NCBI RefSeq assembly: GCF_023169965.1
Contig: NZ_AP025592.1
Coordinates: 2,294,001 to 2,358,000 of the forward strand
DNA: 64,000 bases
Source: Anaeromyxobacter paludicola
GTDB lineage: Bacteria > Myxococcota > Myxococcia > Myxococcales > Anaeromyxobacteraceae
Direction of reading: 5' to 3'
Made by a program: the position numbers and the translations under genes. The notes below the pieces were generated by a model. It was given only the letters and a program-made list of their open reading frames with translations, was not told the DNA's origin and did not search any database. Positions 7,433-54,503 of the stretch are shown here, piece by piece; position 1 is the stretch's first letter, and each line of letters opens with the position of its first letter.

Positions 7433-8677
7433 TCACCCCCCGCGGCGCTTCATGCGGCGCGCGGCGTAGTAGCGCGACACCTTCGGCAGGCTGAACCGGT
7501 TCATGGTCACCGAGTGGGTGACGAGCGCGTTCAACCGGTCGAGGTCGGTGAACCACTCCGGCAGGTGCACCGGGCCGGCGCAGAGCCCCTCCTCGATGAG
7601 CTCGCGGACCAGCTCCGCGTCGTCCACGCTCATCTTGCCGGCGAGGAACGCCCGCGCGAGGTCGAGGTCGCGCTGCTCCAGCACGGCCCGCAGGAAGTTG
7701 AAGGTGCGGCAGTAGCCGCGCTGGTAGGCGGCGTCCTTGGTGAAGGGCGCGCCCCCCTCGACCACGCCGCCGCGGAAGACCCGTTCGCTCATGAGCGCCG
7801 CGCGGTGCGGCGGGAACCGGTTGGCGAGGTAGCGGAACACCTCGAGGTAGTCGGCGCCGCGGGCCGCCATGTCGATGGCGATGGTCCGCTCGCCGAGCTC
7901 GATGTAGCGCTCGTCGGTGATGTTGCCGGAGAGGTACTCGGAGACGATGCCGCCGCCCTCCTGCGACTCGGTGTGGCGCGGCAGGCCCACGCGGAGCACC
8001 GTGAGGACCGGCTGGGCGGCGCCGTTGAGCGAGGTGAGGACGTGCCAGAGCCCCTCGTGGTGGGCCAGCGCCCGGACCTGGCGGGCCGAGAAGACGGCGC
8101 CCTTGCGCACCGCGATCCGCGTCGCGCCGGCAGCCGCGTTGGCGGTGAGCCGGACCCGCTCCTGCACCGTCACCCGGTCGCCCAGCACCGGCGCGCAGAG
8201 CCGGCGCACCCGCTCCACCGCCTCGGCGCTGCCCACGGTCTGCTCCTCGCCGGCGGCGCGCGGCCGGGCGGCCCAGAGCCGCGCGATGGCGAGGTTGTCG
8301 GCGTTGTTGTCCGGGAAGCGGTCGCGCGGGTCGCCGAAGATGCGGCGCGAGAGCTCGTAGAAGCGGCGCGTGCCCCGGGCGGCGAGCATCTCGACGACGC
8401 GCGCGAACTCGTCGCACTTCTCGCGCAGGAGGTGCTCCACCGGGTTCTTGCCGCGGATGCGCCGCCGGAGCCGCTGCAGCTCGCGGACCTTGGCGGCCGC
8501 GTCGTAGCCGAGCGGCGCGTACTCCGGGCGCGGCAGCTCGGTCGCGTCGTGCCGGAAGAAGCGCTCGTGGACCGCGGGATCCCAGTTGATGGCCTTCAGG
8601 ATCCGGACCGGACGCTGGGCCGCGACGAGCTCGTCGGAGAGGCGGCGCAGGTACTCGGGGCCGGGGACGGCGCTCAC
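7433..8677 (-). CDS. DUF1704/QEGLA-motif putative zinc metallopeptidase (MATCAP-like)
   Basis: 414 residues from GTG 8677 (VSAVPGPEYLRRLSDEL). It resembles the family annotated as flavohemoglobin expression-modulating QEGLA motif protein (TIGR02421/DUF1704). Key marks are HHEGLWHVLTSLNG near residues 206-219, an HExxxH zinc motif, and SQEGGG near 238-243, which replaces the usual QEGLA. Eukaryotic relatives (MATCAP/TMCP) are tubulin carboxypeptidases, so hydrolysis of a peptide C-terminus is a fair guess, but no substrate is known in bacteria. The frame stays open far upstream into the type III cluster; that extension is antisense. Divergently oriented from the secretion operon, with about 170 bp between. 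Confidence 0.8.
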   Translation of the reverse strand: MSAVPGPEYLRRLSDELVAAQRPVRILKAINWDPAVHERFFRHDATELPRPEYAPLGYDAAAKVRELQRLRRRIRGKNPVEHLLREKCDEFARVVEMLAARGTRRFYELSRRIFGDPRDRFPDNNADNLAIARLWAARPRAAGEEQTVGSAEAVERVRRLCAPVLGDRVTVQERVRLTANAAAGATRIAVRKGAVFSARQVRALAHHEGLWHVLTSLNGAAQPVLTVLRVGLPRHTESQEGGGIVSEYLSGNITDERYIELGERTIAIDMAARGADYLEVFRYLANRFPPHRAALMSERVFRGGVVEGGAPFTKDAAYQRGYCRTFNFLRAVLEQRDLDLARAFLAGKMSVDDAELVRELIEEGLCAGPVHLPEWFTDLDRLNALVTHSVTMNRFSLPKVSRYYAARRMKRRGG

Positions 8678-8801
8678 GAGGCGACGATAGCACGGCCGGT
8701 GCGGGCGCACCCTGGCCGCGCGGCGCACCCCGGGACCGCCGCGCGGACGGACGGCCGCGCCCGCGGCGTCGCCCCGCGCCGATCTGGCGGGGATGGGCCC
8801 G

Positions 8802-8817
8802 CGGCACGCCCGTTGCT
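8802..8817 (+). promoter_or_regulatory. Sigma-54 (-24/-12) promoter of the type III secretion cluster
   Basis: CGGCACGCCCGTTGCT matches the sigma-54 consensus TGGCACG-N4-TTGCW at 11 of 12 defined positions. The invariant GG (8803-8804) and GC (8815-8816) have the required spacing. The predicted start is near 8828, leaving a short leader with AAAGGAG 7 nt before the ATG at 8847. Seen directly; activity is inference. No activator site was recognised upstream. Confidence 0.7.
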
Positions 8818-8846
8818 CTTCGGCCGCCCACGAAAGGAGAACGTCC

Positions 8847-9335
8847 ATGGACCCCATCGGATCCGTCCACGTCGCCCCCACCACCGAGCGGACCGCCGCC
8901 CGGAGCCGCTTCGAGAACGCCGTCGAGAGCGCGAAGGCGCAGCTGGCGCGCGGCGCCCTCGCCACCGCCGACGTGGCGGCGCCGTTCCTGCCCGGAGGCC
9001 CGGTCCTCTCGGCCGCCGTCCGCGGCGCCATCGGCCCGGGCGAGCCGCTCTCCGTCAAGAGCTCCAGCGCCAGGAAGGGCGCGCCCGCGCCGCCGCGCGA
9101 TCCCGGCTCCGGCTCGACCGGCTCCGGGAGCGGCTCCGGCACCGGCGGGCTCTCGACCGGCGGCGACGTCCTCGAGGCGACCCGCGCGCTGCAGATCGAG
9201 TCGCAGAGCATGAACCTCCAGTACCTGCAGCTCCAGGAGAGCATGCAGGCCGAGAGCCGGGAGTACACGGCGCTCAGCAACGTGATGAAGGTGAAGCACG
9301 ACACCGCCAAGGCGGCCATCAACAACATCCACTGA
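8847..9335 (+). CDS. First gene of the type III cluster; candidate needle (SctF-like) subunit with long N-terminal extension
   Basis: 162 residues from ATG 8847, preceded by a strong AAAGGAG site. The N-terminal 75 residues are Ala-rich and partly helical, followed by a Gly/Ser/Thr linker (GSGSTGSGSGSGTGG) and a C-terminal helix of about 55 residues ending SNVMKVKHDTAKAAINNIH. That end aligns without gaps to the end of the Salmonella needle protein PrgI as I remember it (SNTVKVFKDIDAAIIQNFR), sharing S, N, K, V, D, A, I and N. Its place just before sctI and sctJ equals that of the needle gene in SPI-1 (prgI-prgJ-prgK). Needle subunits are usually about 80 residues, so this would be an unusual form. 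Alternative: another secreted early substrate or regulator. Confidence 0.5.
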   Translation: MDPIGSVHVAPTTERTAARSRFENAVESAKAQLARGALATADVAAPFLPGGPVLSAAVRGAIGPGEPLSVKSSSARKGAPAPPRDPGSGSTGSGSGSGTGGLSTGGDVLEATRALQIESQSMNLQYLQLQESMQAESREYTALSNVMKVKHDTAKAAINNIH

Positions 9336-9344
9336 TCCCTCCCG

Positions 9345-9716
9345 ATGACCCCGACCTCGCTCGCGGCGGCCGCTTCCGGCCCGGCCGCCCCCTCCACCCC
9401 CGCCCCGGGCAGCGGCTTCGGCGCGGTGCTCGAGGCCCGCAGCATGCGGCTGCCGGCGGCGGGCGCGCCGGCCGGGAGCTCCATCCCTGGCGGCGCGCTC
9501 GCCGCGGCCCGCGACGCCCTCGCCTCCCTCGAGCGCGCCCGGGAGCGGCTCGACCGGCTCCTCGACGGCGGCCGGGCGGGGCGCACCTGCACCGCCCGCG
9601 AGCTCCTCGCCGTGCAGCGCGAGGCGTACGGCTACGCCCAGCGGGTCGAGCTCGCCGCCAAGGTGGTGGAGCAGGGCGCCCAGACGGTGAAGCAGGCCGT
9701 GGGGACGCAGGTGTGA
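9345..9716 (+). CDS. sctI: Type III secretion inner rod protein
   Basis: 123 residues. The N-terminus is Ala/Pro-rich and probably disordered. The C-terminal half has the YscI/HrpB-type pattern ELLAVQREAYGYAQRVELA followed by AKVVEQGAQTVKQ, which forms the inner-rod/adaptor helix in homologues. The rod connects the export gate to the needle across the periplasm. It starts 9 bp after the previous stop and its TGA overlaps the sctJ GTG, consistent with an operon and with the order found in SPI-1. The assignment rests on the C-terminal pattern and context. Confidence 0.75.
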   Translation: MTPTSLAAAASGPAAPSTPAPGSGFGAVLEARSMRLPAAGAPAGSSIPGGALAAARDALASLERARERLDRLLDGGRAGRTCTARELLAVQREAYGYAQRVELAAKVVEQGAQTVKQAVGTQV

Positions 9717-10465
9717 GGGCGGCAGGGCGCTCCGCCGGCGCGCTCGCGGCGGCGCTCCTCGCCACCGGCTGCGGCGGCGGCGAGGAGGTGCTCCACGGGC
9801 TCGACGAGCCGCAGGCCAACCAGGTGCTGGTCGCCCTCGAGGAGGGCGGCATCCACGGCCGCAAGGACCGGCCCGACGGCGCCGACGGCGGCTGGACGGT
9901 GCTCGTCCCCTCCGGCGCGGGCGGGCGCGCCCAGCAGCTGCTGGCCCAGCGGGAGCTGCCGCGGCCGCGCGCGCCCGGCTTCGGCGAGGTCTTCGGGAAG
10001 GGCAGCCTCGTCCCGTCGGCGACGGAGGAGCGCGCCCTCTACCTGCACGCGCTCGCCGGCGAGCTGTCGCGCAGCGTGGAGGCCATCGACGGCGTCCTCG
10101 AGGCGCGCGTGCACCTCGCGCTCCCGGAGCCCGGCCCGCTGCGGCCGGAGCCCGGGCCGCCGCCGCGCGCCGCGGTCCTGGTGAAGTCGTCCCCGGGGGC
10201 GCGGGAGCGGCTCGCCGCGCTCTCCGGCGGCATCCAGGCCCTCGTGGCCGGAGCGGTCGCCGGGCTCGAGCCGGCGGCGGTGTCGGTGGTGGTCGCCGAG
10301 GCGATGGCGTCGCCCCGGGCGCCGTCGCCCGCGCGCGGCCGCCCGCGCTGGGCCATCGCCGCCGCGGCGGCGGCGCTCCTCGCCGCCCTGGCGCTCACCG
10401 GCCTCGCGCTGCGCGGGGCCCTCTCCCTCCCGCCCGTCCCGTCCTGGCCATGGCTCAAGCGCTGA
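9713..10465 (+). CDS. sctJ: Type III secretion inner-membrane ring lipoprotein
   Basis: 250 residues, YscJ/FliF family, the inner ring of the injectisome base. A lipoprotein signal (LAAALLATGC, Cys at residue 20) is followed by the ring-building motifs: a first segment LDEPQANQVLVALEEGGI, then TEERALYLHALAGELSRSVEAIDGVLEARVHLALP, both classic for SctJ. A transmembrane helix near residues 208-230 (AIAAAAAALLAALALTG) anchors the C-terminus. GTG start at 9713 overlaps the sctI stop. Clearly an SctJ rather than flagellar FliF, because it is short and a lipoprotein. Confidence 0.92.
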   Translation: MRAAGRSAGALAAALLATGCGGGEEVLHGLDEPQANQVLVALEEGGIHGRKDRPDGADGGWTVLVPSGAGGRAQQLLAQRELPRPRAPGFGEVFGKGSLVPSATEERALYLHALAGELSRSVEAIDGVLEARVHLALPEPGPLRPEPGPPPRAAVLVKSSPGARERLAALSGGIQALVAGAVAGLEPAAVSVVVAEAMASPRAPSPARGRPRWAIAAAAAALLAALALTGLALRGALSLPPVPSWPWLKR

Positions 10466-10809
10466 CCCGACCTCACCCCGACCGCCGGCTCGCCGCGCTG
10501 GCGGCGGCGTTCCTGCCGGCGCCCCGCGCCGCCCTGTCCCGCCTCACGCCGGCCGCCGCCTCGCCCGTGCGCGAGGAGGCGGAGCGGCTCGCCTCGGCCG
10601 GCCGCGGCCACACGCTGCTCGCGCTCCGCCGCGCCTTCGCGCCGCCCGCGCCGCCCGCGGCGGCCACCGTCGAGGCGGCCGCCGGGCGCGAGCGCGGCGG
10701 GCTCGCGGCCCTGCTCGGGCGCGCCGCGCACTCGGCGCCCGGCGCGGCGGCGCACCCGCTCGCGCGGCTCTGCCGCGACCACCTCTCCTCCGACCGGAGC
10801 CTCCCGTGA
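10450..10809 (+). CDS. Unknown small protein in the SctK/SctL position
   Basis: 119 residues, ATG 10450 inside the end of sctJ (16-bp overlap) and stop overlapping the sctQ GTG, so it is embedded in the operon and very likely real. Composition is Ala/Arg/Pro-rich with a helical first half (RLAALAAAFLPAPRAALSRL) and no membrane segment or signal peptide. I recognise no family. In other injectisomes the genes between SctJ and SctQ encode SctK and SctL sorting-platform proteins or the ATPase SctN; this protein is far too short for SctN. A degenerate or minimal SctK/SctL is possible but unproven. Confidence 0.6.
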   Translation: MAQALTRPHPDRRLAALAAAFLPAPRAALSRLTPAAASPVREEAERLASAGRGHTLLALRRAFAPPAPPAAATVEAAAGRERGGLAALLGRAAHSAPGAAAHPLARLCRDHLSSDRSLP

Positions 10810-11795
10810 GCGCCGCCCTCCCCTTCGACCTGCCGAGCGTCTCCCGCGCCCACTGCGCCCTCGGGCCGGGCGCGCGCGCCGCCGGAATCGCCGCCGCCGA
10901 GCGCGTGGCGGCCGGGCTCGGCGCCTTCCTGCGCGCCCCCGTCCGGATCGAGGGCCGCGCGCTGCCCGGGCCGGCGCGGCCGCTCGCGGGCGCCGTGCGG
11001 CTCGGCCTCGACCTGCCGGCCCTCCCCGGCCAGGCGGTCCTCGAGCTCGAGGCGGCCTTCGTCTCCCGCGTGGTGGACCGCTTTGCCGGAGGGGACGGGA
11101 CGCTCCCGCCCGCCCTGGCGCTCACGCCGGTGGAGACGAGCGCGCTCGAGCTCCTCGCGCTCGTGGCGCTCGAGGCGCTCGGCCCGGACTCGCTCCCGGA
11201 GCGGCTGCTCGCGCCGCGGCTCTCCCGCGAGGCCGGGACGCCCGAAGGTCCGCTCGTGGTGGCCCTGACGCTCGAGGCCGGTCCCGAGCACGGCCGGGGG
11301 CGGCTCCTGCTCCCGCCGGCGGCGGTGCGGGCCCTCTCGGCGGCGGTCGAGCTGTCGGCGCCCGCGGCGCGGCTCGCGCTCGACGGGCGGCTCTGCCGGG
11401 CGACCGCCCCGCTCACGGCGGAGGAGCTCGAGGCGCTCGCGCCGGGAGACGTCGTGCTCGCCGAGCCCGAGGCGGCCGCCGTGCTCGCCTTCCCCGGCGG
11501 CCTGGAGCTGCGCGGCCGGCTGGAGGAGCAGGCCTTTCACGTGGAGGAGCTCGCAGTGAACGAACGGACCGCCGCCTTTCCCATCACCCTCGCCGTGGAG
11601 CTCGGGCGCGTGCCCGTGACGCTGGGCGAGCTCGCCCGGCTCGAGCCCGGCGCCACCCTCGAGCTGCCGCTCGGGCGCCGCGGGCTCGTGACGCTGCGCG
11701 CGGGCGAGCGGGCCGTCGCGCGCGGAGAGCTCTGCGAGGTGGACGGCGCGCTCGGGGTGCGCGTGCTCTCGCTCGGCGACGGGGAGCTGCCGTGA
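10806..11795 (+). CDS. sctQ: Type III secretion cytoplasmic ring/sorting platform protein
   Basis: 329 residues, SctQ (YscQ/HrcQ) related to flagellar FliM/FliN. The C-terminal SpoA domain covers about residues 250-326 (LGRVPVTLGELARLEPGATL, then GLVTLRAGERAVARGELCEV) and is the most conserved part. A less conserved upstream SpoA-like region and an N-terminal domain precede it. It should form the sorting platform beneath the export gate and pick substrates with SctL/SctN, neither of which is recognised here. GTG start overlaps the upstream stop. It is followed by a FliO-like gene, as flagellar fliN is followed by fliO. Confidence 0.85.
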   Translation: MSAALPFDLPSVSRAHCALGPGARAAGIAAAERVAAGLGAFLRAPVRIEGRALPGPARPLAGAVRLGLDLPALPGQAVLELEAAFVSRVVDRFAGGDGTLPPALALTPVETSALELLALVALEALGPDSLPERLLAPRLSREAGTPEGPLVVALTLEAGPEHGRGRLLLPPAAVRALSAAVELSAPAARLALDGRLCRATAPLTAEELEALAPGDVVLAEPEAAAVLAFPGGLELRGRLEEQAFHVEELAVNERTAAFPITLAVELGRVPVTLGELARLEPGATLELPLGRRGLVTLRAGERAVARGELCEVDGALGVRVLSLGDGELP

Positions 11796-12154
11796 CCGCG
11801 CCCCGGGCACCGTCGCTCGTCCTCCTCGGAGGCCGCCGCGGACTGGGCGGCGCCGTCGCGGCCCTCTCGGCGGCGGCGCTCGCCGCCGGCTCCGTGGCCG
11901 GTGGCCTCGCCGGCGCCGGGCTGCGGGCGTCGGCGGTGGTCGGCGCGCTCGGCTGCGCCGCGCTCCTCCTCGGGAGGCCGCCGCGCCGCGCCGCGCCGGC
12001 CGCCCTGGCGGTGCTCGAGACCCGCAGCCTGGGGCGGGACGCCGGGGTGGCCCTCGTCTCCTGCGCCGGCCGGCGCTGGCTCGTCGGACACGGCGCGGGC
12101 GGGGTCCGGCTCCTCACCGAGCTGCCGCCCGCCGCGGAGGAGGGCGCCCCGTGA
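11792..12154 (+). CDS. FliO-like membrane protein within a type III secretion cluster
   Basis: 120 residues. The N-terminal half holds one or two hydrophobic segments (about residues 18-62). The C-terminal half reads LETRSLGRDAGVALVSCAG then RRWLVGHGAGGVRLLTEL, which follows the FliO pattern: an R.SLG turn, a V.V..G strand, a ..LL(V)G strand, and a final G-V-.-L-L-.-.-L strand. Flagellar FliO is the assembly chaperone of the FliP (SctR) ring and is encoded just before fliP, the same place as here. Classic injectisomes lack it. GTG start overlaps the sctQ stop and its end overlaps sctR, so it is part of the operon. Confidence 0.7.
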   Translation: MTAPRAPSLVLLGGRRGLGGAVAALSAAALAAGSVAGGLAGAGLRASAVVGALGCAALLLGRPPRRAAPAALAVLETRSLGRDAGVALVSCAGRRWLVGHGAGGVRLLTELPPAAEEGAP

Positions 12155-12852
12155 CCGGCGTGGATCCGGCGCCGCTGCTGGGGGCGGGACCGGCCGGCGA
12201 CCACCCGGCGCAGGCGCTCCTGCTGCTCGGGGCGATGGCGCTCCTCCCGGCCGCCTTCGTGACCTTGACCTCGTTCCTGAAGATGAGCGTGGTCCTGGGC
12301 GTGGCCCGCTCGGCGCTGGGCGCGCCGCAGGTGCCGCCGGGGACGGCGGTGACCGGCCTCGCGCTCCTGCTCACCTTCACCGCCATGGCGCCGGTGGCCG
12401 AGGCGAGCTGGCGGGCGGCGCGGGAGCCTGCGCCGCCCGGGGTGGAGGGGGTGCTGGTCTCGGCCGGCCGCGCCGCCGAGCCGCTCCGGGCCTTCCTGCG
12501 CCGGTTCGCCCGGCCCGACGACCGGCGCGCCTTCCTGGAGCTCTCGGCCCGGGCCCGGCCGGCGGGAGCCGCGCCGGAGCTCGCGCCGCCCGGGCCGCCG
12601 TCGGAGGACGACTTCGCCGTGCTCGCCCCGGCGTTCGTGGTCTCGGAGCTGCGCCGCGCCTTCACCATGGGCTTCCTCGTCTTCCTGCCGTTCCTGGTGG
12701 TCGATCTCTTCGTGGCGAGCGTGCTGCTCTCGCTGGGGCTCACCCAGCTCTCGCCGACCAGCGTCGCGCTCCCCTTCAAGCTCCTCCTCTTCGTCGCCGC
12801 CGACGGCTGGCGGGTCCTCGCCCGCGGCCTCGTCGCCGGCTACCTGCCCTGA
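12151..12852 (+). CDS. sctR: Type III secretion export gate protein
   Basis: 233 residues, FliP/SctR family, the five-copy core of the export gate. The conserved ends are clear: FVTLTSFLKMSVVLGVARSA near the N-terminus and PAFVVSELRRAFTMGFLVFLP, then LPFKLLLFVAADGW near the C-terminus, with four hydrophobic helices. The methionine-rich loop usual before LPFKLLLF is here SLGLTQLSPTSVA, poor in methionine; that loop acts as the gasket of the gate in flagellar and Salmonella proteins, so the seal may differ. GTG start at 12151, overlapping the FliO-like gene. Confidence 0.95.
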   Translation: MTGVDPAPLLGAGPAGDHPAQALLLLGAMALLPAAFVTLTSFLKMSVVLGVARSALGAPQVPPGTAVTGLALLLTFTAMAPVAEASWRAAREPAPPGVEGVLVSAGRAAEPLRAFLRRFARPDDRRAFLELSARARPAGAAPELAPPGPPSEDDFAVLAPAFVVSELRRAFTMGFLVFLPFLVVDLFVASVLLSLGLTQLSPTSVALPFKLLLFVAADGWRVLARGLVAGYLP

Positions 12853-12884
12853 CGTCCCCCCACCTCACGCGCCGGAGCCCGCCC

Positions 12885-13151
12885 GTGGACCTCGCCCTCC
12901 TCGCCGCCGCCCGCGAAGCCCTGCTCCTCGCCCTGCTCGTCTCGGCGCCGCCGCTCGTCGCGGCGCTCCTGGCCGGGCTCGCCGCCGGGGTCCTCCAGGC
13001 GGCCACCCAGATCCAGGAGCCGTCGCTCTCGGCGCTGCCCCGGCTCGCCGCGTCGTTCGGCGCGCTCGCCGCCGCCGGCCCCTGGATCGGCGCCCGGCTG
13101 GTCCGCTTCGCCGTGGCCTGCCTCGAGCTCGCGCACCGGACCGGGACATGA
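12885..13151 (+). CDS. sctS: Type III secretion export gate protein
   Basis: 88 residues, FliQ/SctS family, two-helix hairpins that wrap the SctR ring. GTG start at 12885 (VDLALLAAAREALLLALLV). The characteristic ATQIQEPSLSALPRLAA loop between the two hydrophobic helices is present and the length is exactly typical. The stop overlaps the sctT ATG as ATGA. A 32-bp gap separates it from sctR, the largest gap within this part of the operon. Confidence 0.95.
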   Translation: MDLALLAAAREALLLALLVSAPPLVAALLAGLAAGVLQAATQIQEPSLSALPRLAASFGALAAAGPWIGARLVRFAVACLELAHRTGT

Positions 13152-13981
13152 CGGCGCTCCTCGACGTCGCCCGCGCCCTCGCGCCCTGGCTCGCCGGCGC
13201 CGGGCTCCACGGGCTGCGCCTCCTCCCGGCGGCGCTCCTCTCCCCGCTCCTGGGCGGCCCGGCGGCGCCACCCCTGGCCCGGCTCTCGCTCGCCTTCGGG
13301 CTCGGCGCGGTGGCCTGGTCGGCGCGCGGAGGGCCGCCGCCCCCGGCCGGGCTCGACCTCCTCGCCGCCGCCGCCCGCGAGCTCGCCGTCGGCGTGGCGC
13401 TCGGCCTCGCGGCGGCCCTCCCCGTCGAGGCGGCCCGGGCCGGCGGGCGGCTCGCCGACACCGCCCGCGGGGCGACGCTGGCCGAGCTGCACGTGGCCCC
13501 GCTCCGCCAGCGCGAGTCGGCGCTCGGCGACCTGCTCGCGCAGTGGACGGTGGCCCTCGCCGGCGCGACCGGCGGCGGGCGGCTCGTGGTGGCGGCGCTG
13601 CTCGGCAGCTTCGAGGCCCTCCCCGCGGGAGGGCCTGCCTCAGCGGGCGCGCTCCTCGACTCCGGCCTCCTCGTGGCCGGCGAGCTCGTCGGCTGCGCGG
13701 CCTGCCTCGCCGCCCCCGCGTTCGCCGCCGTCCTCGCCGCCGACCTCGCGCTCGCGCTCGCGGCCCGGGCGGTGCCGCAGCTCGCGCCGGGGGCCGCCGC
13801 GGCGCCGGCCCGGGCGGCGCTCGGGATGGCCGCGGTGGCCCTCTCGGCGGGCGCGCTCGCGGGCCGGCTGGTGACCGAGGTCGCCTTCTCGGCCGGCGCC
13901 GCGCGCGCGGCGGCGCGGCCCGCCGCGATCGCCGCTGGCCCCGGGACCGCCGCACCGCTCGCCCGCGGGGCCCGGCCGTGA
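13148..13981 (+). CDS. sctT: Type III secretion export gate protein
   Basis: 277 residues, FliR/SctT family, one copy of which completes the export-gate cone. The sequence is almost wholly hydrophobic with about six predicted membrane segments. Family features include the N-terminal LRLLPAALLSPLLGG, VGVALGLAAALPVEAARAGG and GELVGCAACLAAPAFAAVLAADLALAL. The C-terminal part is more Ala-rich than usual, in keeping with the genome. ATGA overlap with sctS and overlap of its TGA with the sctU GTG. Confidence 0.9.
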   Translation: MTALLDVARALAPWLAGAGLHGLRLLPAALLSPLLGGPAAPPLARLSLAFGLGAVAWSARGGPPPPAGLDLLAAAARELAVGVALGLAAALPVEAARAGGRLADTARGATLAELHVAPLRQRESALGDLLAQWTVALAGATGGGRLVVAALLGSFEALPAGGPASAGALLDSGLLVAGELVGCAACLAAPAFAAVLAADLALALAARAVPQLAPGAAAAPARAALGMAAVALSAGALAGRLVTEVAFSAGAARAAARPAAIAAGPGTAAPLARGARP

Positions 13982-15027
13982 GCGGCGCCCGGACCGAGCG
14001 CCCCACCCCGCGCCGGCAGCGCGAGGCCCGCCGCCGGGGCGAGGTGGCGCGCAGCCCGGAGCTCCTCGCGCTCGCCGCGCTCGCCGGCGGGCTCGCCGCG
14101 ATCTGCGCCACCGGGCGGGGGCTCCTCTCGGCCCTCTCGCGCCTGCTCCGGTCCGGCCTCGAGCGCTCCCTCGACCTCGCGCCCGACCCGGCGGCGGCGC
14201 TCCTGGCGGCGCTCGGCGCCTTCGCGCGCGCCGCGGCCCCGGTGCTCGCGGGGGCGGCGCTGGCGGCGGGGCTCGCCGGCCGGCTCGTCGCGGGGCCGGT
14301 CTTCTCGTTCGAGGCCTGCGCCTTCCGCCTCGACCGGCTCGGGCCGCGTCGCGGGCTCTCCCGGCTCTGCTCCGGCGCCCGGCTCGGCCGCGCGCCGCTC
14401 GAGGCCCTCCGGGCCGCCGTCCTCGTCGCCTCCGGCGGGCTCGCGCTCCGCGCGGCCGCCCCGGCCCTCTCCCGCCTCCCGAGGCTCGAGCCCCGGGCGC
14501 TGCTCGCCGGCGAGGGGCTGCTCGGGGCGCGCGCCGTCGCGGCGCTCCTGCCGGCGCTCGCCCTCTTCGCGGCGGCCGACCTCGGGCTCGCGCTCCGCCG
14601 CCACCGGGCCGCGCTCCGGATGACGCGCGAGGAGGTCCGGCGGGACCAGCGCGAGGAGGAGGGCGACCCGCAGCGGCGGGCGGAGCGGCGGCGGCTGCAC
14701 CGCGCCCTCGCCGACGCGCCCCCGCTGTCGCGCGCCACCTGCCTCGTCGTGAACCCGGTCCACTTCGCGGTCGCGCTCCGGCACGAGCGGGGCTCGGACG
14801 AGGCGCCGCGGGTGCTCGCGAAGGGGGCCGGCGAGGCGGCGGCGCGGCTGCGGGGCGCGGCCCGGCGCGCCGGGGTGCCGGTCGTGGAGGACGTCCCGCT
14901 GGCGCGGGCGCTCCACCGGCTCTGCGAGGTGGGCGAGGAGATCCCCGAGGAGCTGTTCGAGGCCGCCGCCGCGGTGCTGGCGCACCTCTACGCCGGCGCC
15001 GGCCGCGCGGTCGAAGGGGAGGCCTGA
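13978..15027 (+). CDS. sctU: Type III secretion export switch protein with NPVH in place of NPTH
   Basis: 349 residues, FlhB/SctU family. N-terminal signature TERPTPRRQREARRRGEVARS, four hydrophobic helices to about residue 210, the linker helix DQREEEGDPQRRAERRR, and the cytoplasmic switch domain with CLVVNPVHFAVALRH. The autocleavage motif is N259-P260-V261-H262 (bases 14752-14763), where nearly all relatives have NPTH. The cleaved Asn-Pro bond is kept, so cleavage may still occur but at an altered rate. GTG start at 13978 overlaps the sctT stop. Confidence 0.95.
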   Translation: MSGARTERPTPRRQREARRRGEVARSPELLALAALAGGLAAICATGRGLLSALSRLLRSGLERSLDLAPDPAAALLAALGAFARAAAPVLAGAALAAGLAGRLVAGPVFSFEACAFRLDRLGPRRGLSRLCSGARLGRAPLEALRAAVLVASGGLALRAAAPALSRLPRLEPRALLAGEGLLGARAVAALLPALALFAAADLGLALRRHRAALRMTREEVRRDQREEEGDPQRRAERRRLHRALADAPPLSRATCLVVNPVHFAVALRHERGSDEAPRVLAKGAGEAAARLRGAARRAGVPVVEDVPLARALHRLCEVGEEIPEELFEAAAAVLAHLYAGAGRAVEGEA

Positions 15028-15028
15028 G

Positions 15029-17038
15029 GTGGCGCTCGGCTGGCGCGCGGCGGCGGCGGTGCGGGGCGCGGGGGACGTGGCGCTCCCGCTCGTCGCCCTC
15101 TCGGTGGTCGCGCTCCTCTTCGCGCCGCTCTCCCCGGCGCTCCTCGACGGGCTGCTCGCCCTGAACCTCGCCCTCTCGGCGACGGTGCTCGTGGTCACGC
15201 TGCTCGCCCGGGAGGCGCTCCGCTTCGCGAGCTTCCCCACCCTGCTCCTCTTCACCACCCTGTTCCGGCTGGCGCTCGAGGTCTCCTCCACCCGCCTCGT
15301 GCTCTCGCGCGGCGACGCGGGGCGGCTCATCCACGCGCTCGGGGCGGTGGTGGTGCAGGGCGACGTCGTGGTGGGCGTGGTGGTCTTCGCCATCCTCACC
15401 CTGGTCCAGCTGCTCGTGGTCGCGAAGGGGGCCGAGCGGGTGGCGGAGGTGGCGGCCCGCTTCAGCCTCGACGCCCTCCCCGGGAAGCAGATGGCCATCG
15501 ACGCCGACCTGCGCGCCGGCGCCATCGACCAGGCCGAGGCGCGCAGCCGCCGGCGCGCGCTGGAGCGCGAGAGCCAGCTCTACGGCGCCATGGACGGCGC
15601 GCTCAAGTTCGTGAAGGGGGACGCCATCGCGGCGGTCGCGATCGTGCTCGTCAACCTCGGCGGCGGGCTCTGCGCCGGGCTCCTGCGCGGCCTCGACCCG
15701 GCCCAGGCGGCGCGGCGGTACGCGCTCCTCGCCATCGGCGACGGCCTCGCGGCGCAGGTGCCGGCGCTCCTCCTCGCCGTCGCCGCGGGGGTCGCGGTGA
15801 CCCGCGTGGCCGCGGAGGAGGAGGGCGGCGACCTCGGCGGAGAGATCGCGCGGCAGCTCTTCTCGGACCCGCGGGCCCTCGCGCCGGTGGCGGCGCTGTG
15901 CGGCGGCCTCGCGCTCGCCCCCGGCCTCCCGGCGCTGCCCTTCGCGCTGCTCGCGGCGGCGGCGCTCGCCGTCTCCGCGCGCCCCTGGCGGCGCCCCGCT
16001 CCGGCGCCGGACGACCACCCGGCGCCGGCCCCGCCGGGGCCGTGGGCGCCCGCGCCCCCGCTCACGCTCGAGCTCTCGCCGGACCTCGCCGCGCTCGCCG
16101 GCGGCTGCGACGGCCGGTTCTCGCGCGAGCTGCTCCCCTCCCTGCGCGAGGACCTCTGGCGGGCGCTGGGCGTGCGGCTGCCGCCGCTGCTCCTCCGGAC
16201 CGCGCCGCTCCCGCCCGGGCGGTGGCGGCTCCTCGCCGACGACGTCCCCTGCGCCGCCGGCGCCGCCCCGGCCGGCGCGGTCGCGCTGGCCGAGCCGGGC
16301 GAGCTCGCCCTCGTGGGCATCGGGTGCGCGGCGCGCCGGCACCCGCTCACCGGCGCCGCGGCGGCCGCCATCGCCGCGGCGGACGCGGCCCGGGCCGCGG
16401 CGGTCGCGCAGGTGCTCGACCCGCTCGCCTGGCTCGGGCTCGAGCTCGCCGCCGCGCTCCGCCGCGCCGCCCCGCAGCTCCTCTCCCTGCAGGAGGCCCA
16501 GGCGCTCCTCGACGCGCTCGAGCCGGGGCACCCGGCGCTGGTCCGCGAGGCCTCGCGGCAGGTCCCGCCGTCCCTGCTCGTCGAGGTGCTGCGCCGGCTG
16601 CTGGAGGAGGAGGTCTCGATCCGGCCGCTGCCCGCCATCCTGGAGGCGCTGCTCGACGCCGGACCGACCCGGGGGCCCGACGCCCTCGCCGAGCGCTGCC
16701 GGCGCGCGCTCCGGCGGCAGATCGCCTGGCAACAGGCGGAGGGGCGCCCCCTGCCCGCGATCCTGCTCGATCCGGGGGCGGAGCTCTCCCTCAAGGACGG
16801 GCTCGCGGGCGACGCGCCCGCCCTGAGCGCCGCCGAGCTCGAGCGGCTGCTCGACGCGCTCGACGCGGAGCTGGCCCGGGAGCCCGGGCGCAAGGTGCTC
16901 CTCGCCTGCCCCGAGGTCCGGCGGGGGCTGCGACAGGTGGTGGCGCTGCGCCACCCGAGGCTCGCGGTGCTCAGCTACGAGGAGCTACCGCCCGGGCTGG
17001 TCGTGCGCCCGGTCGGCAAGCTGTCGCTCCCGGCCTGA
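15029..17038 (+). CDS. sctV: Type III secretion export gate protein, major
   Basis: 669 residues, FlhA/SctV (FHIPEP) family. The first half is membrane-embedded (about eight helices to residue 325) with the family segments FPTLLLFTTLFRLALEVS, STRLVLSRGDAG, DALPGKQMAIDADLRAG, and SRRRALERESQLYGAMDG. The second half is the cytoplasmic nonamer-ring domain. It should form the outer export gate that accepts substrates and couples proton flow to export. GTG start at 15029, one base after the sctU stop. Last gene of the cluster; a hairpin follows directly. Confidence 0.96.
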   Translation: MALGWRAAAAVRGAGDVALPLVALSVVALLFAPLSPALLDGLLALNLALSATVLVVTLLAREALRFASFPTLLLFTTLFRLALEVSSTRLVLSRGDAGRLIHALGAVVVQGDVVVGVVVFAILTLVQLLVVAKGAERVAEVAARFSLDALPGKQMAIDADLRAGAIDQAEARSRRRALERESQLYGAMDGALKFVKGDAIAAVAIVLVNLGGGLCAGLLRGLDPAQAARRYALLAIGDGLAAQVPALLLAVAAGVAVTRVAAEEEGGDLGGEIARQLFSDPRALAPVAALCGGLALAPGLPALPFALLAAAALAVSARPWRRPAPAPDDHPAPAPPGPWAPAPPLTLELSPDLAALAGGCDGRFSRELLPSLREDLWRALGVRLPPLLLRTAPLPPGRWRLLADDVPCAAGAAPAGAVALAEPGELALVGIGCAARRHPLTGAAAAAIAAADAARAAAVAQVLDPLAWLGLELAAALRRAAPQLLSLQEAQALLDALEPGHPALVREASRQVPPSLLVEVLRRLLEEEVSIRPLPAILEALLDAGPTRGPDALAERCRRALRRQIAWQQAEGRPLPAILLDPGAELSLKDGLAGDAPALSAAELERLLDALDAELAREPGRKVLLACPEVRRGLRQVVALRHPRLAVLSYEELPPGLVVRPVGKLSLPA

Positions 17039-51791: not shown

Positions 51792-54503
51792 ATGCGCAAG
51801 CTCCTCCTCCTCACGCTCCTCCTCCCGGTCCTCGCCACCTCGCAGTCGCTGCCGCCGCAGCGCGCCGGCCGGCCCCCGCGCTACCTCCCGCAGGAGCCCG
51901 CCGGGACGCCGCAGCCGGCGCCCCCGCGCCAGCCGCTGCCGCCCGGCGCCGCCGGGGTGCCGCCGTCCGGCGCGCCCGCCCCGGCCGCGGGCGGGGCCGG
52001 CGGCGACGCCGTGATCTCGCGCTCCGAGGGCAAGTGCCAGCCGATGGAGGGGCACTTCCTCCTCGCCTTCAACAAGGCCGAGATCGTGGACGTGCTCGAG
52101 CAGGCCAGCCGCTGGACCTGCCGCAATTTCGCCTACACCGACGAGATCGCGCGCGGGAAGATCACCCTCGTCTCGAAGACGCCGGTCTCGGCGGAGGAGG
52201 CCTACGCGGCGTTCCTGGCCGCCCTCTCCGCCAACAACATCGCCGTCTACCCGTCGGGCAAGTACCACAAGCTCATCCGCATCGCCGACGCCAAGAAGAC
52301 GCCCATCCCCACGCTCACCGACGGCGCCGAGGCGCCGGCCACGGAGCAGCCGGTCACCAAGATCATCCGGCTGCGCTACTCGGATCCCGACCAGCTGCGC
52401 GGCATCCTCGGCAACTTCACCTCCCCGCAGGGCGCCGACATCCAGGTGGTGGCGCCGGACCTCCTCATCGTCACCGACATCGGCCTCAACGTCCGGCGCG
52501 TCGAGAAGCTCATCGAGGCGGTGGACCGGCCGGGCGGCGGCGACCTCATCCGCGTGGTGCAGGTGCAGTACGCCTCGGCCCGCGACCTCGCCGAGAAGGT
52601 CAACCAGGTCTTCCAGCAGTCGCCCGCCACCCCCGGCCGCCCCGGCGCCGGCCGGCGCACGCTCATCGGCGGCGTGGCCCCCTCGACGCCCGGCGCGCCC
52701 GCCGCCGCCCCCGCCGCCGGCGGGACCGAGCCGTCCGAGATCTCCATCTCCAAGGTCCTCGCCGACGAGCGGACCAACAAGCTCATCGTCATCGCCGACG
52801 ACAAGAGCTTCCAGCGCATCCTCGACCTCGTGAAGCAGCTCGACCTGCCCACGAGCGGCGAGGGGACCATCCACGTGGTGTTCCTCAAGAACGCCAACGC
52901 CGAGGACCTCGCGCAGACGCTGCAGGCGCTGGCGCAGGGCCAGGCCTCCGCCCGCAAGCAGCAGGGCGCCACCGGGGCGCCGGCGGGCCTCCCGGTCACG
53001 CCGGCCGCGGCTCCCGGCCAGCAGGCCGCGCAGGCCGCCCTCGCCGGCGGCCACGGCCCGGCCACCAGCGCCGACCTCTTCAGCGGCGAGGTGAAGGTCA
53101 CCGCCGACAAGACCCAGAACGCCCTCGTGGTGATGGCGAGCGCCACCGACTTCGCCGTGATGACGCGGCTCATCGACAAGCTCGACCGGCCGCGCCGCCA
53201 GGTGTTCGTCGAGGCGGTCATCATGGAGGTCAACCTCAACAACGAGAACCAGTTCGGCGTCTCGATGCACGGGGTCATCCCGTACAAGACCTCGGACGGC
53301 ACGGGCTACATCCCGCTCGGCTCCGAGACGGGCCGCGTGAACTCGTTCAACGTCTCGAGCCTCATCTCCCTCGGCGGCTTCCTCACCGGCCTCGCCGGCC
53401 CGACCTCGGCCCAGCTCAAGGACGTGCTGCCGGGCGTCCCGAGCGTGTCGCTGCTCGTGCAGGCCCTGCAGACCTCCTCCGACGTGAACGTGCTCTCGAC
53501 GCCGCACCTGCTCGCCTCGGACAACGAGGAGTCGGAGATCACCGTCGGCCAGAACGTCCCGTTCCAGGCCGGCTACTCGGCGCTGAGCGGCCTCTCGAGC
53601 ACCACCGGGACCACCGCCGCCGGCTCCACCCTCGGCACCCTCGGCCTGCTCTCGGGCGGCCTCAACAGCCTCTACGCCCCGATCCAGCGGCAGAACGTGG
53701 AGCTGAAGCTCCGCATCAAGCCGCAGATCAACGAGGGCGACAACGTGCGGCTCGACCTCGAGGAGCAGACCGAGGAGATCGCCTCCAAGGATCCGACCCT
53801 CGGCCCCACCACCGCCAAGCGGAGCGTGAAGACCAAGATCGTCGCCAAGGATCAGAACACCATCGTGATCGGCGGCCTCATCCAGGAGCGTACGGTCCAG
53901 GGCGTCCACAAGATCCCGGTCCTCGGCGACATCCCGATCCTGGGCTGGCTCTTCCGCGACCAGGTCACCACCAAGACCAAGACCAACCTGCTGCTGTTCC
54001 TCACGCCGTACATCATCCGCGACGAGTCGGACTACAAGCGCATCCTCGAGCGGAAGCGGCGGGAGCAGCAGGAGTTCACCGAGCAGTTCTACGGCAAGAC
54101 CGCCCGCTACGACGTCCCGGTGGACTACGCCCGGAAGGCGGGCGCCTACACCCGCATCCACAAGGACATGGACGTCGAGCTCCTCAAGCTCGAGAACGGC
54201 GGACCCGGCTCGCCCGGCGAGCGCACCGTCCGGCCGCCGGCGCAGGACCAGGAGCTCGACGAGCGGAACCTGCCGCCGTCCGCGACCCCTGGCGCGGGCG
54301 CGCCCGCCCCGGGCGGCGCTGGCGCGCCCGCGCGGCCGGCCCCCGCGACCCCGCCCGCGACCCAGGCGCCGGCACCCGCTCCGACCCAGGCGCCGGCGCC
54401 CGCTCAGCCCCAGGCCCCGGCGCCCGCTCCGGCGCCGGCGAGCCCGCCCGCAGGGCAGGCGGCGCCGTCGCCCGGCCCGCAGGCTCCGGCTCCCGGGCGC
54501 TGA
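51792..54503 (+). CDS. gspD: Type II secretion secretin
   Basis: 903 residues with a signal peptide (MRKLLLLTLLLPVLATSQS). N0 domain near 80-150, then N1-N3 repeats (IIRLRYSDPDQLRGILGNF; VVQVQYASARDLAEKVNQVF; VVFLKNANAEDLAQTLQAL) separated by Ala/Pro/Gly inserts, and the secretin domain (VFVEAVIMEVNLNNENQFGV, DVNVLSTPHLLASDNEESEI, VGQNVPFQ, IKTKIVAKDQNTIVIGGLIQ, VPVLGDIPILGWLFR-like). The final 90 residues are a Pro/Ala repeat tail. Forms the outer-membrane channel. Starts 20 bp after gspC. Confidence 0.97.
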   Translation: MRKLLLLTLLLPVLATSQSLPPQRAGRPPRYLPQEPAGTPQPAPPRQPLPPGAAGVPPSGAPAPAAGGAGGDAVISRSEGKCQPMEGHFLLAFNKAEIVDVLEQASRWTCRNFAYTDEIARGKITLVSKTPVSAEEAYAAFLAALSANNIAVYPSGKYHKLIRIADAKKTPIPTLTDGAEAPATEQPVTKIIRLRYSDPDQLRGILGNFTSPQGADIQVVAPDLLIVTDIGLNVRRVEKLIEAVDRPGGGDLIRVVQVQYASARDLAEKVNQVFQQSPATPGRPGAGRRTLIGGVAPSTPGAPAAAPAAGGTEPSEISISKVLADERTNKLIVIADDKSFQRILDLVKQLDLPTSGEGTIHVVFLKNANAEDLAQTLQALAQGQASARKQQGATGAPAGLPVTPAAAPGQQAAQAALAGGHGPATSADLFSGEVKVTADKTQNALVVMASATDFAVMTRLIDKLDRPRRQVFVEAVIMEVNLNNENQFGVSMHGVIPYKTSDGTGYIPLGSETGRVNSFNVSSLISLGGFLTGLAGPTSAQLKDVLPGVPSVSLLVQALQTSSDVNVLSTPHLLASDNEESEITVGQNVPFQAGYSALSGLSSTTGTTAAGSTLGTLGLLSGGLNSLYAPIQRQNVELKLRIKPQINEGDNVRLDLEEQTEEIASKDPTLGPTTAKRSVKTKIVAKDQNTIVIGGLIQERTVQGVHKIPVLGDIPILGWLFRDQVTTKTKTNLLLFLTPYIIRDESDYKRILERKRREQQEFTEQFYGKTARYDVPVDYARKAGAYTRIHKDMDVELLKLENGGPGSPGERTVRPPAQDQELDERNLPPSATPGAGAPAPGGAGAPARPAPATPPATQAPAPAPTQAPAPAQPQAPAPAPAPASPPAGQAAPSPGPQAPAPGR

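Follow-up and report, generated by a model that had tools for sequence, protein, structure and literature searches.

The export-gate cluster of a non-flagellar type III secretion system (T3SS) in Anaeromyxobacter paludicola carries, between sctQ and sctR, a gene of the FliO family. This gene was probably inherited together with the gate from a flagellum-like ancestor and kept, whereas the classical lineage lost it, and its product most likely serves as an SctR chaperone. FliO has long been held to be a protein of flagella only and is cited among the clearest differences between flagellum and injectisome. The cluster lies in a stretch of 64,000 nucleotides, hereafter the window, to which coordinates refer unless another sequence is named.

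The presence of FliO in non-flagellar T3SS of Myxococcota, including both systems of Myxococcus xanthus (WP_020477618.1 and WP_216608840.1), was already reported in PNAS in August 2025, along with its occurrence in such systems of several Pseudomonadota orders, and repurposing was suggested (PMC12403147). Judged by description, the window protein resembles those of M. xanthus in that all are FliO-family members encoded in Myxococcota loci for non-flagellar T3SS, but it differs in coming from the Anaeromyxobacteraceae and in being of the short type; it may itself be among the proteins in the supplement of that report. The present analysis adds a gate tree that bears on retention versus repurposing, the finding that the classical loci studied leave FliO no space, and the two-helix architecture of the protein.

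Gene content of the cluster

The cluster spans positions 9345-17038 and comprises, in this order:

9345..9716, + strand: SctI-like (inner rod) candidate, 123 aa; putative role from position and PMC3459982
9713..10465, + strand: sctJ, inner-ring lipoprotein, 250 aa; TIGR02544 132.9 bits vs FliF 52.0
10450..10809, + strand: small frame between sctJ and sctQ, 119 aa; no family match
10806..11795, + strand: sctQ, cytoplasmic ring, 329 aa; TIGR02551 79.2 bits vs FliM 34.3 and FliN 30.5; FliMN_C
11792..12154, + strand: fliO-like gene, 120 aa; PF04347 35.5 bits, TIGR03500 32 bits, AlphaFold2 model
12151..12852, + strand: sctR (FliP homologue), 233 aa; NF009438 EscR/YscR/HrcR 213.6 bits (cut-off 179) vs fliP 170
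12885..13151, + strand: sctS (FliQ homologue); Bac_export_3 E=2e-21
13148..13981, + strand: sctT (FliR homologue), 277 aa; Bac_export_1 E=1e-30
13978..15027, + strand: sctU (FlhB homologue), 349 aa; TIGR01404 224 bits vs flhB 216.1
15029..17038, + strand: sctV (FlhA homologue), 669 aa; TIGR01399 546.8 bits vs FlhA 493.2

The Q-O-R-S-T-U-V order read in the earlier note is correct, with the SctI-like frame and SctJ ahead of it. The start of sctJ was picked from its 4-base overlap with the upstream frame, and for sctS we took the first in-frame start codon close to the Bac_export_3 domain. The SctI candidate gave only a sub-threshold match to Pfam PF17001 (13.6 bits, E=0.096); a homologous frame is found directly 5' of sctJ in 13/13 short loci. 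The 119-aa frame had no Pfam or NCBIfam match and phmmer returned only the frame itself; the same slot in Myxococcaceae (L030, L031, L074) is occupied by frames unlike it in sequence. SctU presents NPVH instead of the self-cleaving NPTH motif usual in FlhB/SctU. The flanking genes are unrelated, with VIT1 and MATCAP families upstream and HU, BrkB and RNase E/G downstream. The MATCAP-family (PF08014) peptidase gene (7433-9592, - strand) is divergent to the cluster, and its frame as annotated overlaps the SctI candidate, so that its true start is probably lower.

That the cluster is non-flagellar, as first proposed from the letters, is borne out by the five neighbours tested (SctJ, SctQ, SctR, SctU and SctV), each of which scores better against T3SS models than against flagellar ones, with a margin that is large for SctJ and small for SctU, and by a flagellar set elsewhere in the genome. 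Indeed, a profile search of the genome, a single contig of 4.59 Mb, retrieved exactly two matches each for FliP, YscJ/FliF and FliO; the second set lies at 1.19-1.21 Mb, with its genes ordered as is typical for flagella (locus L029). As this complete, separate flagellar gate carries its own FliO (C1:1212952), the window copy is not a displaced flagellar gene.

A second T3SS-type ATPase gene (436 aa, C1:958973-960283, corresponding to L069:7972-9282 on the - strand) is located beside rpoC, about 1.35 Mb from the gate cluster. Relatives in the family that have no flagella, and no second FliP, keep exactly one T3SS-type ATPase, and the gene beside rpoC appears to belong to the non-flagellar system. 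In L065 and L090, the gap between sctJ and sctQ reaches 3.5-4.4 kb and could hold an ATPase gene inside the cluster. No secretin is encoded in the cluster; the nearest one (51792-54503) lies 35 kb downstream, in an operon for type II secretion. The cluster departs from a classical injectisome both in this absence of a secretin in or near the locus and in the presence of FliO between sctQ and sctR. By its gene content, it is best classed as a short, secretin-less non-flagellar T3SS of Anaeromyxobacteraceae.

Abby and Rocha described secretin-less short and long loci of this kind in 2012 and found them to branch basally among non-flagellar systems (PMC3459982). The window cluster matches their short type in its gate genes, small inner-ring protein, rod candidate and missing secretin, and in stemming from the same bacterial group, but FliO is unmentioned in that account and the ATPase gene is remote here. 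Similarly, by description, it is comparable to the needleless T3SS* of M. xanthus, which is also a secretin-less non-flagellar T3SS of a myxobacterium; unlike the window cluster, T3SS* is encoded by a large cluster (mxan_2434-2464) and acts together with the Kil pilus to lyse prey (PMC12075869).

The FliO-like gene and its protein

The 120-residue frame had been located exactly by the earlier note. It starts with GTG and shares four bases with its neighbours at each end, the stop of sctQ and the start of sctR, and its GC content at the three codon positions (0.89/0.69/0.96) is of the coding type for a 75% GC genome. A Pfam profile search of the protein returned FliO (PF04347) as the sole family, at residues 64-116, with a score (E=1.1e-8) above the gathering cut-off of 22 bits. 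The score against the NCBIfam model of flagellar FliO, TIGR03500 (E=9.3e-8), falls under the equivalog cut-off of 55.25, and by that rule the protein would be classed as related to FliO and not as a flagellar FliO equivalog.

The expected layout, one or more N-terminal hydrophobic segments followed by a small beta domain, was recovered in the AlphaFold2 model built from 36 aligned relatives: two predicted membrane helices (15-33 and 40-61) precede a four-stranded domain (73-111), with a mean pLDDT of 96-98 across residues 71-110. Like flagellar FliO (PF04347, Salmonella), the protein thus has membrane helix and then beta domain, and its gene lies just 5' of the FliP homologue; unlike it, it presents two predicted helices, has neither the long N-terminal region nor the C-terminal tail, and occurs in a non-flagellar context. 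As the usual FliO core has a single membrane segment (PMC12403147), the modelled two-helix hairpin without a long N-terminal region distinguishes the short-type FliO from the usual form. The long-type FliO of some Myxococcota genomes that are small or branch deeply (L062, L063, L064) has shed its N-terminal region, and one helix and the beta domain remain.

A phmmer search of PDB sequences with the protein returned no real match. It is hardly credible that the frame encodes a small membrane protein of a different family with a mere resemblance to FliO. The sub-cut-off NCBIfam score would suit this reading, as would the comparison of the model with PDB folds, which gave generic four-strand pieces of unrelated proteins (Z <= 6.1) and no FliO among the matches listed. 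However, the Pfam score exceeds its cut-off with no competing family, an iterative search ties the protein to flagellar FliO both within and outside the phylum, and the gene slot is that of flagellar FliO. Scarcely more probable is a degenerate, drifting remnant of a FliO that is no longer needed, in spite of the low identity among relatives (22-44%) and of the absence from short-type proteins of the conserved C-terminal tail of Myxococcota flagellar FliO. Against a remnant stand the intact frame with its overlaps on both sides, the domain in every short-type locus read, and conservation across four families. Moreover, dN was lower than dS in 6/6 fliO comparisons, although dS is near saturation at this GC content, so that the dN/dS ratio itself is uninformative. 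The gene can be taken, from its sequence, to encode a genuine FliO-family protein.

Distribution of FliO

FliP was found in 136 and FliO in 134 of 156 Myxococcota genomes. FliO precedes FliP/SctR in 59/59 Myxococcota loci read (13 short non-flagellar including the window, 26 long non-flagellar and 20 flagellar), a count biased by the location of most of these loci through their FliO match; the seven among them that were picked by FliP alone have it as well. The short arrangement, SctI-SctJ-Q-O-R-S-T-U-V, occurs in 13 loci from four families, and this constant position of fliO is more than chance would give. With the frame kept in all of these related clusters and a FliO relationship found both in the profile search and in the predicted structure, neither of the outcomes named in the earlier note as speaking against its proposal, a missing relationship or a missing frame, was observed.

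A further 80 loci were collected independently, by searching named genomes for a FliP pattern; upstream sequence was available for 74, and 69 of these had a FliO match. Of the five without one, two come from Myxococcota, namely L079 and L107 (Sandaracinaceae, Polyangia); in both, sctR is separated from the genes that normally adjoin it, and no SctS, SctT or FliO was detectable in the fetched stretch. Their SctR is 45-48% identical to that of the window. Comamonas sp. KCTC 72670 (L074, BNCN01000001.1, 9.0 Mb) was considered as a betaproteobacterial short system and rejected as a mislabelled Myxococcus-like genome, on the basis that G166 and G106 carry FliP at identical coordinates.

Non-flagellar systems of Sphingomonas, Novosphingobium and Ottowia also encode FliO (Pfam scores of 38.7-53.4 bits), but in another slot; in the sphingomonad-type systems the gene sits between sctU and sctQ and not between sctQ and sctR. 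On the contrary, and in agreement with the initial statement that classic injectisomes have no FliO, none was matched in six classical injectisome loci (five from Pseudomonas-family genomes and one from Paracoccus, a set without Chlamydia, Ysc or SPI systems). The gap between sctQ and sctR measures 0-94 bases in these six, compared to 316-485 in short-type loci, and thus leaves no room for FliO at that place.

Retention or recruitment

A tree of the export gate (IQ-TREE, LG+F+G4, concatenated SctR+S+T+U, that is P+Q+R+B, from 93 loci) united all non-flagellar systems with a UFBoot of 100. The same support was obtained for a Myxococcota-type group, which includes a few other phyla, and for a group of classical and sphingomonad-type systems, the classical ones alone reaching 99. 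The FliO-less classical systems are therein sister to the FliO-bearing sphingomonad-type, and the Myxococcota-type lies outside both. Since FliO-bearing systems are found on both sides of the non-flagellar base and are not monophyletic, ancestral presence followed by one loss is the simplest account. This topology suggests inheritance of FliO from a flagellum-like ancestor, with a later loss in classical injectisomes, rather than a recent borrowing. It is fairly likely that FliO was present in the ancestor shared by all non-flagellar T3SS and disappeared once toward the classical injectisomes, a single event that we infer, in which case the Myxococcota-type and sphingomonad-type systems would be living stages from before the loss.

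The FliO tree, with only 74 usable columns in its alignment, is not resolved and too weak to settle retention. It does not recover a single group of non-flagellar FliO; forcing one costs 53 log units, and such a group narrowly escapes rejection (AU p=0.052). The retained intermediate put forward in the earlier note agrees with the gate tree, whereas the FliO tree gives no proof of it.

Recruitment of FliO from a flagellar operon after the systems had split ('repurposed', PMC12403147), possibly more than once, is the less likely course, yet one to be taken seriously. A grouping of short-type FliO with Myxococcota flagellar FliO, as expected from borrowing from flagella of the phylum in general, survives the AU test (p=0.163), but borrowing from the flagellum of the window's own family is rejected (p=0.018). 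Likewise, the window protein shares 39% identity with one flagellar FliO (L038) and only 18-30% with the long-type proteins, but its closest matches are other short-type FliO (51-41%). The different slot of fliO in sphingomonad-type systems would also fit independent gain; recruitment would, however, require separate gains in the Myxococcota-type and sphingomonad-type lineages, each beside gate genes.

A change at FliP position R143 (Salmonella numbering) was considered as an explanation of the loss of FliO and rejected. Arginine occupies this position in 64/74 flagellar, 9/13 short-type, 0/26 long-type and 0/6 classical proteins, and so follows whether a system is flagellar and not whether it has FliO; it is uninformative on the loss because long-type systems keep FliO yet have no R143.

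Proposed role and meaning

In Salmonella flagella, FliO shields FliP from proteolysis and promotes the FliP-FliR complex while being absent from the finished basal body (PMC5542435). It is also a scaffold for the FliP ring, and its loss is partly bypassed by FliP R143H (PMC5542437). By homology and gene position, a chaperone role in SctR assembly is the most likely one for the window protein. It would act in the membrane to stabilise SctR, as FliO does in Salmonella, would help SctR close into a ring before SctS, SctT, SctU and SctV join, and would then depart. Its client is nevertheless uncertain, because in Campylobacter the effect of FliO falls on FlhB instead of FliP (PMC12403147).

The origin of injectisomes from flagella is a long-standing question. 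The published reading of non-flagellar FliO is repurposing and the gate tree favours retention, and both can now be compared. If FliO is ancestral and was lost only in classical injectisomes, SctR must there have learned to form its ring unaided.
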